From an uncultured Chloroflexus sp. (GTDB lineage Bacteria; Chloroflexota; Chloroflexia; Chloroflexales; Chloroflexaceae), in NCBI RefSeq assembly GCF_937129525.1, contig NZ_CAKZNK010000050.1:1-64000 (forward strand): a stretch of DNA of 64,000 nucleotides, written 5' to 3'. The notes beneath the pieces are model-generated. The model was not told where the DNA came from and ran no database searches. It saw nothing but the letters and a program-made list of their open reading frames with translations. This document shows, piece after piece, positions 3,220 through 9,950 of this stretch. The stretch's first letter is position 1; each line of letters starts with the position of its first letter. The position numbers were made by a program, and so were the translations under genes.

Positions 3220-3293
3220 GATGCCGGCAGCCGGTCAATCGGGGAGATGAACAGAGCAAGGGACGATCGGTTACCGCAGACGGCGTACCTTGT

Positions 3294-3301
3294 GCTACAA
3301 T
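3294..3301 (+). promoter_or_regulatory. Extended -10 promoter element
   Basis: TGC followed by TACAAT (3296-3301) forms an extended -10 element with a predicted start near 3308, about 48 nt before the ATP-grasp gene start. The nearest -35-like hexamer, TTACCG at 3271-3276, is spaced 19 bp away. The same TGCTACAAT string precedes coaBC. Confidence 0.45.
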
Positions 3302-3355
3302 CAGCCGTGCCGTTCGATAGACATCTCTCTGTTGATATATTTCAGGAGGTTTACT

Positions 3356-4405
3356 GTGAGTGACAAGAAGATCGGCATTCTCGTCGGTCGCGAGTGGTCC
3401 TGGCCGCCCGCTTTTATCGAAGAGGTGAATCGACGCAATGCCGGCGTGCGGGCAGAGTTTATCAAGCTGGGGGGAACGCGCATGGCCGAGTTGTGCGACT
3501 ACGACGTGATTGTCGATCGCATCAGCCATGAGATTCCGTATTACCGCACGTTTCTAAAGACAGCGGCGCTCAGCGGCACTCGTATCGTCAACAACCCATT
3601 CTGGTGGAGCGCTGATGATAAGTTTTTTGGCGCGTCATTGGCTACAGCATTAGGCATTCCCCACCCGCGCACCGTGGCTCTGCCATCTCACTCTTACATC
3701 GAGGGTGTGGTCGAAGAATCGCTGCGCAATTTGCAATATCCGATTCCGTGGAAAGATCACGTTGACTACGTGGGCGGTTTTCCGGTCATTCTCAAGCCGG
3801 CGTGGGGCGGCGGCTTCAAGAAGGTGTACAAAGTGCATTCGTATGAGGAGTTGTGGCGGGCTTACAACGAGACCGGTATCGAGTGCATGATGCTGCAAGA
3901 GTATATCGCCTGGGAGAAGTATGTGCGCTGCATCGTAATCGGTCGCCGTCACATTATGACGATTAAGTTCGATGCCAATGCGCCGTGGCCGCACCGCTAC
4001 TTCCGCGACGATAATTATCTCACCCCCGATGAGGGTCGGCAGGTCGTTGACGCGGCGTTGAAGCTGAATCAAGCGCTCGGTTATGACATGAACACAGTCG
4101 AGTTCGCCATCCGCGGCGGCGTCGCTTATGCCATCGACTTTACCAACCCCGCGCCCGATTTTGATGTCAATTCGCTTACCCCGTTCTATTTCGACTGGGT
4201 AGTGCGCACGATGGCCGATTTCACGATCGAGCTGGCATTGCAAGGCCGGGCCAAACCGGAAGAGTTTGCCTGGCACCGTTTGCTCAACGGGCCGATGACT
4301 CCGACCGCGCCAGTTGCGACACCCAATAATGATCCGCCGGCAGCGGAAACCGCTGCGCCCAAGCGCCGCGCGACGCGCAAGAAGAAGGCGGCTGAAGAGG
4401 CCTAG
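3356..4405 (+). CDS. ATP-grasp (RimK-like) ligase of unknown substrate
   Basis: A 349-residue protein starting at GTG 3356, directed by AGGAGG at 3344-3349; longer upstream starts would run through this site. The fold is ATP-grasp: a central ATP-binding segment (VILKPAWGGGFKKV) supplies the Lys and Gly-rich loop, and a C-terminal metal-binding segment (EFAIRGG...IDFTNPAP) supplies Glu and Asn. Such enzymes join a carboxylate to an amine through an acyl phosphate, as in RimK or glutathione synthetase. The last 20 residues are a basic Lys/Arg/Ala tail that could bind nucleic acid or a partner. It is followed by an intrinsic terminator, so it is probably transcribed on its own. Substrate unknown. 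Confidence 0.75.
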   Translation: MSDKKIGILVGREWSWPPAFIEEVNRRNAGVRAEFIKLGGTRMAELCDYDVIVDRISHEIPYYRTFLKTAALSGTRIVNNPFWWSADDKFFGASLATALGIPHPRTVALPSHSYIEGVVEESLRNLQYPIPWKDHVDYVGGFPVILKPAWGGGFKKVYKVHSYEELWRAYNETGIECMMLQEYIAWEKYVRCIVIGRRHIMTIKFDANAPWPHRYFRDDNYLTPDEGRQVVDAALKLNQALGYDMNTVEFAIRGGVAYAIDFTNPAPDFDVNSLTPFYFDWVVRTMADFTIELALQGRAKPEEFAWHRLLNGPMTPTAPVATPNNDPPAAETAAPKRRATRKKKAAEEA

Positions 4406-4419
4406 TCTCCTGATATGAG

Positions 4420-4462
4420 GGCGCGAAGCGTATGGTAAACTACCGATAGCTTCGCGCCTTTT
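4420..4462 (+). terminator. Intrinsic terminator after the ATP-grasp gene
   Basis: A perfect 10-bp stem (GGCGCGAAGC at 4420-4429 with GCTTCGCGCC at 4449-4458), a 19-nt loop and TTTT. It lies 15 bp after the stop codon and separates the two ATP-grasp genes. Confidence 0.85.
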
Positions 4463-4495
4463 CATCAACGTCATACCTTGCTCAAGAGGACGTTT

Positions 4496-5878
4496 ATGAC
4501 CCTTGCCCAGGCCATCGCTGACTACCATGCTTTGCTCAATCCGGCCATGGCTGTTGCTTCGTGGCAACGGCTTACTGAAGAGATGCGCGCTCGACGGCTC
4601 TACTTTGGTGAGCGACCACTGGCAACGGTATTGCGGCCACGTCTGATCACTTCATCACAATACGACTTGCTCCGGCACGGAACGCAACAGGTAGCCGAAG
4701 CGGCGCGCGCAATCGTGGCTGCCGCGCTCGATCTCGATGAGACCGGGCGGGCGGTGCGCGAAGTGCTGATGCTCACCCCCCTGGAAGAGCGCTTGATCGC
4801 GATGCATCCAGGCTATTTCGAACCAAGTGCCCATTCCCGGATGGATACCTTCCTTACCGTTGATGGTACTTCGTTGCAATTTGTTGAATACAATGCCGAA
4901 AGTCCGGCGGCAATTGCCTACGAAGATTTGCTGGCGCAGGCATTTTTGGCCATGCCGGTGATGGAAGAATTTACCAGAAAATATCCGGTGATGCCGTTGC
5001 CGGCCCGTCAGTATATGCTGCGCACATTGATGGATTGCTGGCGCGCTGCCGGCAGTCCTGGCGGCGAGCCGCGAGTGGCGATTGTGGATTGGCGCGGCGT
5101 GCCAACTGCAACTGAGTTTGTGATGTTCCAGCGCTATTTTGTGGAGCATGGCTTGCCAACCGTCATTTGCGCGCCGCAAGATCTCGCGTTTCGCGATGGT
5201 CGGTTGTGGGCGAAAACAGAGGATGGCACTGAGACACTGGTGACAATTGTCTTCAAGCGGGTGTTGACCAGTGAGTTTCTCTCGCATTATGGCGATGATG
5301 CGCTCCAGCATCCCCTGGCACTGGCCTATGCTGCCGGCGCTTGTGTCATCGTGAATTCGTTCCGCGCCAAGCTTCTGCATAAAAAGTCACTCTTTGCACT
5401 GTTGTCCGATGAGCGTTTTCACGATCCGCTTGGCGTCGCGCAGCGCGCCGCAGTTGCCGCTCATGTGCCCTGGACGCGGGTAGTGCGTCCGGGGCAGACA
5501 ACCTACCAGGGTGAGACTATCGATCTGCTGGCATTTGCTCGCGCTAATCGAGAGCGGTTGCTGCTTAAGCCAAACGATGAATACGGTGGCAAAGGCATTA
5601 CCATCGGCTGGGAAGTGAGTGATTCTGAGTGGGATGCCGCGCTCAAAGCGGCGCTCGAGTCGCCGTTTGTCGTGCAAGAGCGGGTGACGATTGCTTACGA
5701 GCCTTATCCGGCGCTGGTTGATGGGCAGGTTGTGATCGGTGAACGCCTGGTTGATAGCGATCCGTTCTTGTTCGGCACCGAAGTGAACGGATGTTTGTGC
5801 CGTCTCTCGACGGTGACGCTGCTCAATGTGACTGCCGGCGGCGGCAGCACGGTACCGGTCTTTGTGATCGATGGATGA
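4496..5878 (+). CDS. Circularly permuted type 2 ATP-grasp protein
   Basis: A 460-residue protein resembling the circularly permuted ATP-grasp family (DUF404/DUF407 type). Recognisable pieces are the [17 protein letters not shown] and [10 protein letters not shown] segments in the first third, [15 protein letters not shown] in the middle, and the nucleotide-binding stretch [14 protein letters not shown] near residue 360. Members ligate amino acids or peptides, but the substrate here is unknown. AGAGGA at 4485-4490 fits the ATG at 4496 better than the TTG six codons upstream. It overlaps the next gene by a few bases and heads a run of four co-directional genes ending in the putative selenoprotein. 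Confidence 0.75.
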
Positions 5879-6668
5879 GACTATGACGCAGGTGCGCGAC
5901 GCGCTCGGTCGGATCATTGAGCTGGCTGCGCCTCCTCAACGCATCGTCTCGCTCGTGCCGAGCATGACCGAATGGCTATTCAGTGTCGGCGCCGGCGAGC
6001 GGGTGATTGGTGTCACCAGATTTTGTATTGAACCGGCTGCGGCAATCGCTCATCTGCCACGCCTCGGCGGGACGAAAAACCCCGATCGAGCGGCAATTAT
6101 TGCCCTGCGTCCCGATCTGGTCATCGCTGAGCAGGAAGAAAATCGTGAACGCGACGTGCAGGCCCTGATCGAAGCCGGAATCAACGTCTATGTGACCGCT
6201 ATTCGTAGCGTAGCCGATGTGGTGACCCAGTTAACGGCGCTGGCTGCGATTCTTGATGTCAGCGCGGCAGCTACACCAATGATGGCCGAGCTGCGCGCTG
6301 CGCTGATCGACCCACCTGCGCCAAATTGGCGCGTGCTCGCTCTGATCTGGCGCGATCCCTGGATGGCTATCGGTCAGGCTACCTACGCCGGTGATCTGTT
6401 GCGGTTGAGCGGTGGAATCAATGTAGCTGAAAGGTTGCCGGGACGCTATCCGCGCGCGACGCTTGCTGAGTTTCTTGCCCTCGAACCGGAATTGATCTTA
6501 CTGCCAAGCGAGCCGTACCCGTTTAGCGAACGTGATTTGCCGGTATTTGCCGCAGTTGACCAACGTTGTCGAATTGAATTTTGTGACGGAATGGCGTTGA
6601 CGTGGCCCGGCCCTCGTTCGTCAGCAGCATTGACCATGTTCCGCCAGTTATTGCAGCAACCGCTATGA
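5871..6668 (+). CDS. BtuF/TroA-like metal-receptor-fold protein without signal peptide
   Basis: A 265-residue protein with the helical-backbone substrate-binding fold of vitamin B12 and iron-siderophore binding proteins (Peripla_BP_2). The N-terminal PQRIVSLVPSMTEWLF and later RLGGTKNPDRAAIIALRPDLVI segments are family hallmarks. Unlike secreted family members it starts directly with the mature domain; no signal peptide, lipobox or membrane segment is present, so it appears cytoplasmic. No transporter permease or ATPase lies nearby. An in-frame ATG at 5883 is an alternative start. It is sandwiched by overlaps between the ATP-grasp and DUF547 genes, which points to a role in the same pathway rather than nutrient uptake. 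Confidence 0.8.
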   Translation: MDETMTQVRDALGRIIELAAPPQRIVSLVPSMTEWLFSVGAGERVIGVTRFCIEPAAAIAHLPRLGGTKNPDRAAIIALRPDLVIAEQEENRERDVQALIEAGINVYVTAIRSVADVVTQLTALAAILDVSAAATPMMAELRAALIDPPAPNWRVLALIWRDPWMAIGQATYAGDLLRLSGGINVAERLPGRYPRATLAEFLALEPELILLPSEPYPFSERDLPVFAAVDQRCRIEFCDGMALTWPGPRSSAALTMFRQLLQQPL

Positions 6669-7549
6669 GTCAGTTGGTCTGGTTACGCGAATTCGCGCTG
6701 GGTATGATGCTGGGTGAGCGGGCGCAACAAGCGCTCAATACCGGCACGATGCCGGCGCATGCGGTAGACGGGTCGAAGCTAGCGGCCCATCTCAGGCGCG
6801 CCGTTAACGAGTTTAAAGCGCTGGCCATGGATGCCGGTGGCACTCAGGTGGCCTATCATCGACTGCGAGACCATCCTGCCTATCTGTCCTTTCGCACCGA
6901 ATTGACCCCGCAATTGCAGCGATTCGACCCGGCGACGTTGCCAGACCGGGCGGCGCGGCTGGCGTTCTGGATCAATCTCTACAACGTGCTGGTGATCGAT
7001 GCCGTTATTGCATTCGGTGTCCGGCGCAGTGTTGCTGATGAACTGGCCGGGATCAGCTTCTTTCAAGCGGCGGCTTATCGCATCGGCGGTCAGCGCTGCT
7101 CGCTAAATGACATTGAACACGGCATCCTGCGCGCCAATCGTGGACACCCTTTCATTCCCGGCCCGCAGTTTGCCGCTAACGACCCGCGTCTATCCTGGAT
7201 TATCGACCCGCCCGATCCGCGCATTCATTTTGCCCTTAACTGCGCCAGTCGCTCGTGCCCGCCGATAAGTGTCTACAACGCCGATCAGATCGATGCTCAG
7301 CTCGAACTGGCATTGCGTAGCTTTGTGGCGGCTGATGTCACAGTCGATCCCGCGCGCGGCGAGATCCATTTATCGCGGATCTTTGACTGGTACCGCGAAG
7401 ATTTTGGCGGCCCAAACGGGATTGTGCAACTGTTGCGGCGGGCGTTGCCTGATGACGAGCGCCGGGCCTGGTTGCTTCAGGCCCATCGTGGTCGGCTCGT
7501 CTATCGCCAGTACGACTGGTCGTTGAATCTTGCGGCGGACGGTCGCTGA
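6665..7549 (+). CDS. DUF547 domain protein
   Basis: A 294-residue protein with a DUF547 core: FWINLYNVLVIDA near residue 100 and DPRIHFALNCASRSCPPI near residue 190 are diagnostic. Cys, His and Asn residues in these motifs resemble a papain/transglutaminase-like catalytic set, which suggests but does not prove a thiol hydrolase. No signal peptide is seen. The ATG at 6665 overlaps the preceding stop (ATGA). The next gene starts 47 bp downstream in the same direction. Confidence 0.8.
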   Translation: MSQLVWLREFALGMMLGERAQQALNTGTMPAHAVDGSKLAAHLRRAVNEFKALAMDAGGTQVAYHRLRDHPAYLSFRTELTPQLQRFDPATLPDRAARLAFWINLYNVLVIDAVIAFGVRRSVADELAGISFFQAAAYRIGGQRCSLNDIEHGILRANRGHPFIPGPQFAANDPRLSWIIDPPDPRIHFALNCASRSCPPISVYNADQIDAQLELALRSFVAADVTVDPARGEIHLSRIFDWYREDFGGPNGIVQLLRRALPDDERRAWLLQAHRGRLVYRQYDWSLNLAADGR

Positions 7550-7596
7550 ACGCGCTGCGAAACGCCTCATCTCCTGATTGCGGTAAGGGACAGGTT

Positions 7597-8421
7597 ATGA
7601 CTGATGACTGGCGCAATCGTTCACTGAAAGACCTTTATCGGCTTACCGGCCAGATCTTCTCTCAGATACCGGCCCTGGCTCGTCTGTGGGGGAGCGCATA
7701 CCGGGCACTCAATTTTGATAGCGTGCCATTTACGCCGCTGCGCAAGCCGCTCAATGAGTGCCGGCTGGCCTTAGTCACAACGGGTGGCGTCCATCGTCGC
7801 GACCAACCACCGTTTGACATGGTCGATCCGCGTGGTGATCCAACCTATCGCCGGATACCGGTTGATACCCCGCTTGCTGAACTCACCATCACCCATGACT
7901 ACTATGACCATACCGATGCCGAAGCCGATCTTAACATCCTCTTTCCGCTTGAACTGGCGCAATCACTGGTACGGCGCGGCCTGATCGGTAGTCTGGCAAC
8001 CAGCTATAGCTTCATGGGCCATATCGAACCGCCTCACCTGGAGACTTTACTGCGGCAGACTGCGCCGGAAGTGGCGATGTTTCTCAAGCAAGAGCAAGTT
8101 GACGCCGTGCTGTTAACTCCGGCTTGAGGGTTGTGCAATCAGTCCGTGGGACTGATCGCGCGCATCATTGAAAGTGCCGGTATCAGCACTGTGTGCATCA
8201 TCAGCCTGAAGCCAATTGCCGAGCAGGTGCGCCCGCCACGCACATTGTATCTGGCCTGGCCGTTCGGCCATCCACTGGGTGAGCCGGGCCATCGCGCTCA
8301 GCAACTTACCGTGCTGCACGCCGCGTTACACAGCCTTTACTTTGCCGAGCCGGGAGAAATCCTCGAACCAGGATGGCGCTGGCGACGTGAAACGTATACA
8401 GTTCCGCCGGGATGGGAATAA
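7597..8421 (+). CDS. GrdB-family protein with in-frame UGA, probable selenoprotein
   Basis: Read through the TGA at 8125-8127, this frame encodes 274 residues. Residues 1-176 match the glycine/sarcosine/betaine reductase selenoprotein B family (LVTTGGVH, PPFDM, ITHDYYDH, SFMGHI). The 97 codons after the TGA continue the same family without a break (CNQSVGLIAR, PPRTLYLAWPFG). The TGA would be Sec177 in a UxxC redox motif (Sec-Gly-Leu-Cys180), the place where the family carries Sec or Cys. A perfect 8-bp hairpin with a GTG loop follows 18 nt after the UGA, as expected of a bacterial SECIS. Without readthrough the product would be a 176-residue fragment. Decoding needs selA/B/C/D elsewhere in the genome, which cannot be checked here. 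The substrate is unknown; the upstream genes are probably functional partners. Confidence 0.82.
8138..8156 (+). promoter_or_regulatory. Putative bacterial SECIS hairpin
   Basis: ATCAGTCC (8138-8145), loop GTG (8146-8148), GGACTGAT (8149-8156): a perfect 8-bp stem with a 3-nt loop whose first base is G. The loop begins 18 nt after the last base of the in-frame UGA. Bacterial SECIS elements lie inside the coding region with a G-starting small loop at about this distance. Confidence 0.75.
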
Positions 8422-8498: not shown

Positions 8499-9950
8499 TT
8501 ACCCCTTCCCGAACAAGCGATAATTCAATACCGGGAAGATGGCATCATGGCTCTCGATCTGCTCAAGAGCGAAGAGGTCGGTCGCGCTGAGCGATTCTTG
8601 ACGCGCCAGCGCCAGCAACTGTTCGAACCGATCAAGGTGGCGTTGCCAGCCGGAATCTTGTGGCTCTTCGGCCCAATCGTATTGTTCTGCCAGTAACAGT
8701 TCACGGGCCGCTTGCGTCAATACCCGCTCGCGCAACCCTTCAGCAGTCAGATAATGAGCAGCCAGATCAACAAACTGATGTTCGGCATCGTGTAGCGCAT
8801 GCCAGTATCGTTGTGCGCCGACGGATTGCCAGCGGAGTGCGCGCTCTACCGACTGTGCTTCAGGAGATTCGGATTGGATCGTAACTGTCTCGCCTGGGCG
8901 CAGGTTCGTGATGATAGTACCCGGATGAGTCAACCGAAGTCGAGTATCGGTCGCGCAGCGAGTCAAGACTGCCTGTAACCAGGTTGGCCCTTCAAACCAA
9001 TGCGTTCCCCAGCAGCGGGCATTAATCGGCACGACCAGCGTGGCGTCGGCAGGCAACTGATTTAGCTGACACAGGAGTTGTTCAACAAAATGATTGGCGT
9101 GCTCTTGCGCTCGCCGCAGCGCTTCATACGGATCGTATGGCTGAGGCGCAAAGGTGCCATTGGCAGTATAACCGCTGGGGTCGGCAGGGTTGCGGTAGAG
9201 CGGATCGCCCGGGTAACCGATTTCACTCGACTCAATCTGGCGAGCCAGTTCAGTTTCCACACCGATAGCAGCCAGACGACGCGGAATGATCCAGCCGGGA
9301 AGGTGGCCGGTTGCCACACTGACCGGATCAACCAGCACATACCGCAGCTCCAGGTCAAGCGCGATCTGCTCTAAGCCGGGACGCCATGCGTATCCGGGCA
9401 GCCAGAGACCCTCTGGACGTTTCAGGTGGCGCGAGATATACAGCAGACCGTGCTCTAGTTGCGCGCGCGCAATATTCTCGTGGCTGAGCAATGGCAAGAT
9501 CGCATAGCTGGCCGGCGTGCAGAGCGGAACAATCACATCTGTTGAGACCAGCTCTTGCAATCGCCCTACCAGGTTGCGCTGGTAACGAGTGATAAAGGTG
9601 CGCAGAGTCTGGCGATCCCAGTCAAGATAAAACCGGGCCAGATACGCTCCGTGCCGGTCACCCTCCGCTTCAAAGCGGTTCAATTCAGCCTGGTGACGAG
9701 CGATTCTGGTTTCGAGCCACTGCGTAAAATGTTTGTTCGCGATTGGATCACGCCACTGTTCTAACGCGATTGGCGAACACGCCAGCGTAATCACAATCGG
9801 TAACTGATGCCGTTGTAATTCACCAAGCAGATCGAGAAGGGGAATGAGCATCTGGGCTGTGGCAATGTGGAGTTGCTCTTCACCGATAGGATGTCTTCCA
9901 GGATGGCGCACATAAAGCGTATGCGCTTCGATTATGAATGCGACCGGCAT
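8499..9950 (-). CDS. GH57-like protein lacking catalytic acids
   Basis: A 483-residue protein with the overall plan of GH57 alpha-glucan branching enzymes/amylases. The usual HAHLPY start is EAHTLY here. The WLPECxY motif that carries the nucleophile Glu reads WLPGYAW. The DTELFGHWWFEGP motif with the acid/base Asp reads NARCWGTHWFEGP. Both catalytic carboxylates are therefore replaced while the surrounding framework (RPGLE, HWFEGP) is kept. It may be a non-catalytic glucan-binding or regulatory protein; this is inference. A GAGGGAG site precedes the ATG at 9950. It converges with the selenoprotein gene and lies downstream of the kinase gene on the same strand. Confidence 0.8.
   Translation of the reverse strand: MPVAFIIEAHTLYVRHPGRHPIGEEQLHIATAQMLIPLLDLLGELQRHQLPIVITLACSPIALEQWRDPIANKHFTQWLETRIARHQAELNRFEAEGDRHGAYLARFYLDWDRQTLRTFITRYQRNLVGRLQELVSTDVIVPLCTPASYAILPLLSHENIARAQLEHGLLYISRHLKRPEGLWLPGYAWRPGLEQIALDLELRYVLVDPVSVATGHLPGWIIPRRLAAIGVETELARQIESSEIGYPGDPLYRNPADPSGYTANGTFAPQPYDPYEALRRAQEHANHFVEQLLCQLNQLPADATLVVPINARCWGTHWFEGPTWLQAVLTRCATDTRLRLTHPGTIITNLRPGETVTIQSESPEAQSVERALRWQSVGAQRYWHALHDAEHQFVDLAAHYLTAEGLRERVLTQAARELLLAEQYDWAEEPQDSGWQRHLDRFEQLLALARQESLSATDLFALEQIESHDAIFPVLNYRLFGKG

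Follow-up and report, generated by a model that had tools for sequence, protein, structure and literature searches.

A predicted stand-alone PrdB-like selenoprotein in Chloroflexus, encoded across an in-frame UGA codon

PrdB, the B subunit of D-proline reductase, has the pyruvoyl protein PrdA as its partner, just as the related protein GrdB has GrdE. In the mechanism proposed for PrdB, a selenocysteine (Sec) selenolate attacks the substrate and a PrdB cysteine cleaves the selenoether to leave a mixed selenide-sulphide, which a carrier with a thiol-selenol pair then re-reduces (PMC3091704). The C. sticklandii protein carries its Sec at position 152 of 242 residues (PMC3091704), and that paper's reference list contains an article whose title names a peroxidase activity of GrdB. 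Selenoproteins labeled “PrdB” with a UxxC motif have been catalogued since 2005 (PMC1088965), and two environmental surveys, of the Sargasso Sea and GOS, place UxxC “proline reductase PrdB” proteins among the selenoprotein families met most often (PMC1088965, PMC2398784). Proline reductase likewise ranks in the top five bacterial selenoprotein families (PMC9312934), with 131 proteins recorded in 110 organisms (PMC5029168). For the Chloroflexi, a 2006 survey counted three selenoproteins (PMC1794560). In the papers searched and the excerpts read, we found no stand-alone PrdB-like protein tied to a reaction. Since UxxC selenoproteins of the PrdB/GrdB type are long known, the protein described here belongs to a known kind; what sets it apart is that its genome yielded no partner subunit of the sort on which proline or glycine reductase depends.

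The gene lies at 7597-8421 on the forward strand of the window, by which we mean the whole stretch of 64,000 nucleotides of Chloroflexus DNA that was analyzed. Re-reading confirmed the claim of an earlier note on this DNA that the frame is complete and broken solely by a TGA at 8125-8127 (codon 177), followed by 97 sense codons with no further stop before the terminal stop codon at 8419-8421. Translated through, the product would have 274 residues, with the UGA read as Sec177 of a U-G-L-C motif whose last member, Cys180 (TGC, 8134-8136), is the invariant UxxC partner of Sec177 in the homologue alignment. The family motifs said to continue downstream are indeed there, as invariant residues beyond the UGA in the family alignment. 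Purifying selection is about equally strong on the two sides of this codon, with pairwise dN/dS among six Chloroflexus genes of 0.04-0.09 before it and 0.00-0.11 after it. The AlphaFold model of the protein is confident (pLDDT 93.5) and places positions 177 and 180, both invariant in the alignment, between a predicted beta strand and the start of a helix.

Comparison with homologues bears directly on the identity of codon 177. Chloroflexus homologues are 87-91% identical to the window protein, a closeness that places its genome in that genus, and prdB-like matches occur in 37 of 82 Chloroflexales genomes, with a TGA in every full-length match and at the same place in those that were read. A first set of homologous loci, reaching down to roughly 40% identity and extending beyond the Chloroflexales to “Deltaproteobacteria,” Desulfuromonadia, Nitrospirota, Nitrospinota and Verrucomicrobiota, has TGA at codon 177 in all loci bar one and Cys at codon 180 in every locus. 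Stop-free remote homologues exist among 400 Chloroflexota genomes; in the ones read, the majority of which belong to a single family with large genomes (f24), residue 177 is Cys (TGC or TGT). The alignment check that the earlier note had proposed thus came out in favor of Sec, the sense codons at this position in remote homologues being Cys with a single Gly (GGA) exception. That exception, at 9490-9492 of locus L075, sits in an otherwise intact gene that also retains the hairpin discussed below, and may be a mutation, a sequencing error or the mark of an inactive copy.

A tree of 84 sequences requires three changes of state among Sec, Cys and Gly, and the close pairing of a Cys form (L140) with a Sec form (L149) suggests a recent exchange, as judged from the tree. 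Most Cys-form homologues (L133-L146) come from genomes that possess selA, which means that loss of Sec does not by itself account for the Cys form. Several Chloroflexales additionally encode a second PrdB-like paralogue, about 39-41% identical, with UPLC in place of UGLC and a conserved hairpin of its own (L096:9604-10215, L090:7242-7850, L103:7226-7813 and L102). In L096 a nucleoside-phosphorylase-like gene separates it from the UGLC copy, at a distance of approximately 1.4 kb.

Reading UGA as Sec demands a dedicated machinery, and the genome behind the window, rated 99.97% complete, has it. All four components named in the earlier note as a test were found: selA (570 bits), selB (313 bits), a tRNA-Sec with a TCA (UCA) anticodon, and selD (375 bits), the last of which has an in-frame UGA of its own near the N terminus. 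The gene also follows the trait across relatives. Among 56 good-quality Chloroflexales genomes, selA is present in 28/28 that carry the prdB-like gene, and the gene is missing from 10/10 that lack selA, a split with a chance probability of about 4 in 10,000 by our own arithmetic, which ignores kinship. One complete Chloroflexus genome (G006) has neither selA nor the prdB-like gene, which suggests that the two were lost together.

A SECIS-like hairpin lies at 8138-8156 on the forward strand. The earlier note was right about its perfect 8-bp stem (ATCAGTCC/GGACTGAT) and 3-nt loop (GTG in the DNA, GUG in the transcript, at 8146-8148); the spacing of 18 nt it gave is that from the UGA to the start of the loop, the stem itself starting 10 nt past that codon. 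In this one sequence the structure is weak evidence, since an 8-bp hairpin also arises in 17% of re-samplings that exchange the downstream codons for synonymous ones. Conservation is more telling. Across 62 distinct sequences from several phyla, pairing holds in 96% of the cells of the 8-bp stem, and 16 cells are compensatory, whereas within-column permutation of synonymous codons gives 4.7 ± 1.3 and reaches 16 in none of 2000 runs. Double changes in the stem occur, for example, at pair 18-28 (G-C to A-T) and pair 15-31 (T-A to C-G). These comparisons provide strong support for a hairpin that covaries more than synonymous-codon choice would explain, support that is not exact since related sequences inflate compensatory counts. 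Located just 3′ of the UGA and conserved as a structure, the hairpin has what is expected of a SECIS element. Rfam scans returned only a chance match below the gathering score of its family in the gene region, and one tRNA and nothing else in the whole 64,000-nt window.

Taken together, the codon conservation, the Cys forms, the few changes of state on the tree, the covarying hairpin, the selection downstream of the UGA, the co-occurrence with selA and the Sec machinery make selenocysteine insertion at codon 177 close to certain on comparative grounds, and the selenoprotein reading put forward in the earlier note passed its genomic tests. Positions 7597-8421 are thus, as far as sequence can tell, one genuine UGA-encoded selenoprotein gene, which conventional gene callers would break into two pieces at that codon.

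How such a protein might work is best approached by analogy with PrdB. SelB and tRNA-Sec would insert Sec177 under the direction of the hairpin that begins 10 nt past the UGA, a step that the sequence strongly supports. The Sec177 selenolate would then attack an electrophilic substrate, and Cys180 would resolve the resulting adduct, giving a selenenyl-sulfide that a thioredoxin-type dithiol system would presumably re-reduce. The genome yielded no pyruvoyl partner (PrdA or GrdE), which makes an amino acid Schiff base improbable as the substrate; our best guess is a peroxide or other small oxidized molecule. We give a probability of roughly 0.6 to this explanation as a whole, namely a stand-alone PrdB-like selenoprotein acting as a thioredoxin-recycled selenol reductase or peroxidase.

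The surroundings of the gene offer a different and more elaborate possibility. Four genes precede it on the same strand at close spacing: a RimK-like ATP-grasp protein that scores below the curated cut-off (3290-4405), a circularly permuted ATP-grasp protein (PF14403/PF04174; 4478-5878), a TroA-like helical backbone metal receptor (NF038402; 5871-6668) and a DUF547 protein (PF04784; 6602-7549), the last ending 47 bp upstream of the prdB-like gene. On this arrangement, kept throughout 3290-8421 in the Chloroflexus loci examined, one could build a pathway in which the prdB-like protein reduces or cleaves a peptide-like or thiol product of the two ATP-grasp ligases, together with the metal-receptor-fold and DUF547 proteins. 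We consider this unlikely, as the neighbors outside the genus are unrelated: synteny of the two ATP-grasp genes and the metal receptor is confined to Chloroflexus, and only the DUF547 gene, whose link is putative, stays adjacent elsewhere, in Viridilinea. The earlier note's suggestion that a four-gene run ending in this gene forms a redox or peptide-modification pathway therefore finds no support beyond the genus, since Viridilinea keeps only DUF547 and the other loci read keep none, and the idea of the run as a general operon was rejected on the neighborhood comparison. A broader version, in which partnerless PrdB-like selenoproteins form a widespread class over several phyla with an undescribed reaction and in Chloroflexus act alongside DUF547, the metal-receptor-fold protein and two ATP-grasp ligases in a small pathway, strikes us as a long shot.

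Elsewhere the neighbors vary, and no universal neighbor of the prdB-like gene emerged among the loci compared. A thioredoxin gene adjoins it in genomes of family f2 (Roseiflexus-like, the name being a guess), close relatives that count as approximately one event. Other Chloroflexales have an ABC ATPase, TetR and others beside it, and “Deltaproteobacteria” have cytochromes, rhodanese or a P-type ATPase bearing YHS domains. In L068, selA itself is next to the gene. Several neighbors in lineages other than Chloroflexus are thus redox genes (thioredoxin, a DsbC-like gene, rhodanese or cytochrome c), a context that speaks for the proposed mechanism. Because the neighbors differ between lineages, adjacent redox partners may be coincidence. 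Two further observations belong here. In eight “Deltaproteobacteria” MAGs (L059, L064, L066, L067, L075, L078, L079, and L080) the prdB-like gene follows a same-strand P-type ATPase, with YHS domains seen in L079, the one scanned, and a metal link is possible in this group. In L060 (Nitrospirota) the gene just upstream encodes a DsbC-like thioredoxin-fold protein whose CPYC motif opens with an in-frame TGA (8543-8545), so that by its sequence it appears to be another selenoprotein.

The family assignment decides how seriously the protein might be taken for a true D-proline (or glycine-type) reductase B subunit, acting on amino acids with a pyruvoyl subunit. It clearly belongs to the GrdB/PrdB superfamily, scoring 37.3 bits with PF07355 (Pfam GRDB) against a gathering score of 22. 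Among NCBIfam models the best is TIGR04483 (PrdB), which matches 33/33 aligned family members and gives the window protein 161.7 bits, below its curated cut-off of 300. The GrdB models fall just under (TIGR01918, 63.5 of 65.45 bits) or far under (TIGR01917, 55.7 of 602.2 bits) their cut-offs, and at 274 residues against a model of 431 positions the protein is too short for a full GrdB. The label “GrdB-like” in the earlier note accordingly stands at the superfamily level and gives way below it to PrdB, the nearest curated model (162 bits vs. 64 for the GrdB family). A PDB sequence search with the protein and the family profile as queries yielded no credible relative, Foldseek with the AlphaFold model returned nothing at E ≤ 0.001, and the best structural alignment, to microcystinase C, has a Z of 7.9 that lies in the range of common alpha/beta arrangements and excludes no fold family.

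In favor of a reductase subunit, then, are the match to TIGR04483 and the UxxC motif that PrdB also has (PMC1088965). Against it, in addition to a score well short of the cut-off, is the lack of a partner. PF09338 was not found in this nearly complete genome nor in nine other gene-carrying Chloroflexales genomes, with a search that does match in five Chloroflexota genomes with GrdB-type genes, and a search run without its own control did not find it in 22 genomes behind other homologues. TIGR04480 (PrdA) was not found either, in this genome or in the related gene-carrying genomes tested, in a search with weak positive controls only. The protein consequently looks stand-alone rather than a subunit of proline or glycine reductase, and the reductase reading, very improbable by our estimate, is largely refuted. 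Within the GrdB/PrdB superfamily we would describe it as PrdB-like and apparently stand-alone, and as neither PrdB nor GrdB proper. Finally, that the UGA is a real stop, leaving a pseudogene or a 176-residue product, has the standard code on its side, a single UGA being enough to end translation, and is next to negligible given a UGA at the same site over several phyla, the low dN/dS and invariant residues beyond it, a covarying hairpin 3′ of it, and a genome with complete Sec machinery.

With the stand-alone selenoprotein as the preferred reading, Chloroflexus gains a well-supported selenoprotein that standard gene calling would split. It also follows that genes labeled “PrdB” need not be proline reductases. 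Since the pyruvoyl partner was not found in the genomes tested, surveys that rank proline reductase among the commonest selenoproteins may to some extent include another enzyme in that tally. The gene could be deleted in a culturable phototroph, which makes the question behind the label testable.

Set beside the described systems, the window protein shares with GrdB (PF07355, TIGR01917/TIGR01918) the C-terminal half, to which it is homologous and for which Pfam GRDB scores above cut-off; unlike GrdB, it lacks the N-terminal half, and a GrdE-type partner was not found in its genome. With PrdB (TIGR04483) it shares the same domain (residues 45-247 corresponding to profile positions 20-218 of 238), the UxxC motif and the approximately 90-97 residues that follow Sec, but its N terminus extends about 25 residues further, its 162 bits stay well under the 300-bit cut-off, and it belongs to a genome in which the PrdA partner was not found. 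It is also like the “PrdB” proteins as the Sargasso Sea and GOS surveys describe them (PMC1088965, PMC2398784): these too have PF07355, UxxC and a SECIS element, and occur in many Sec and some Cys forms.
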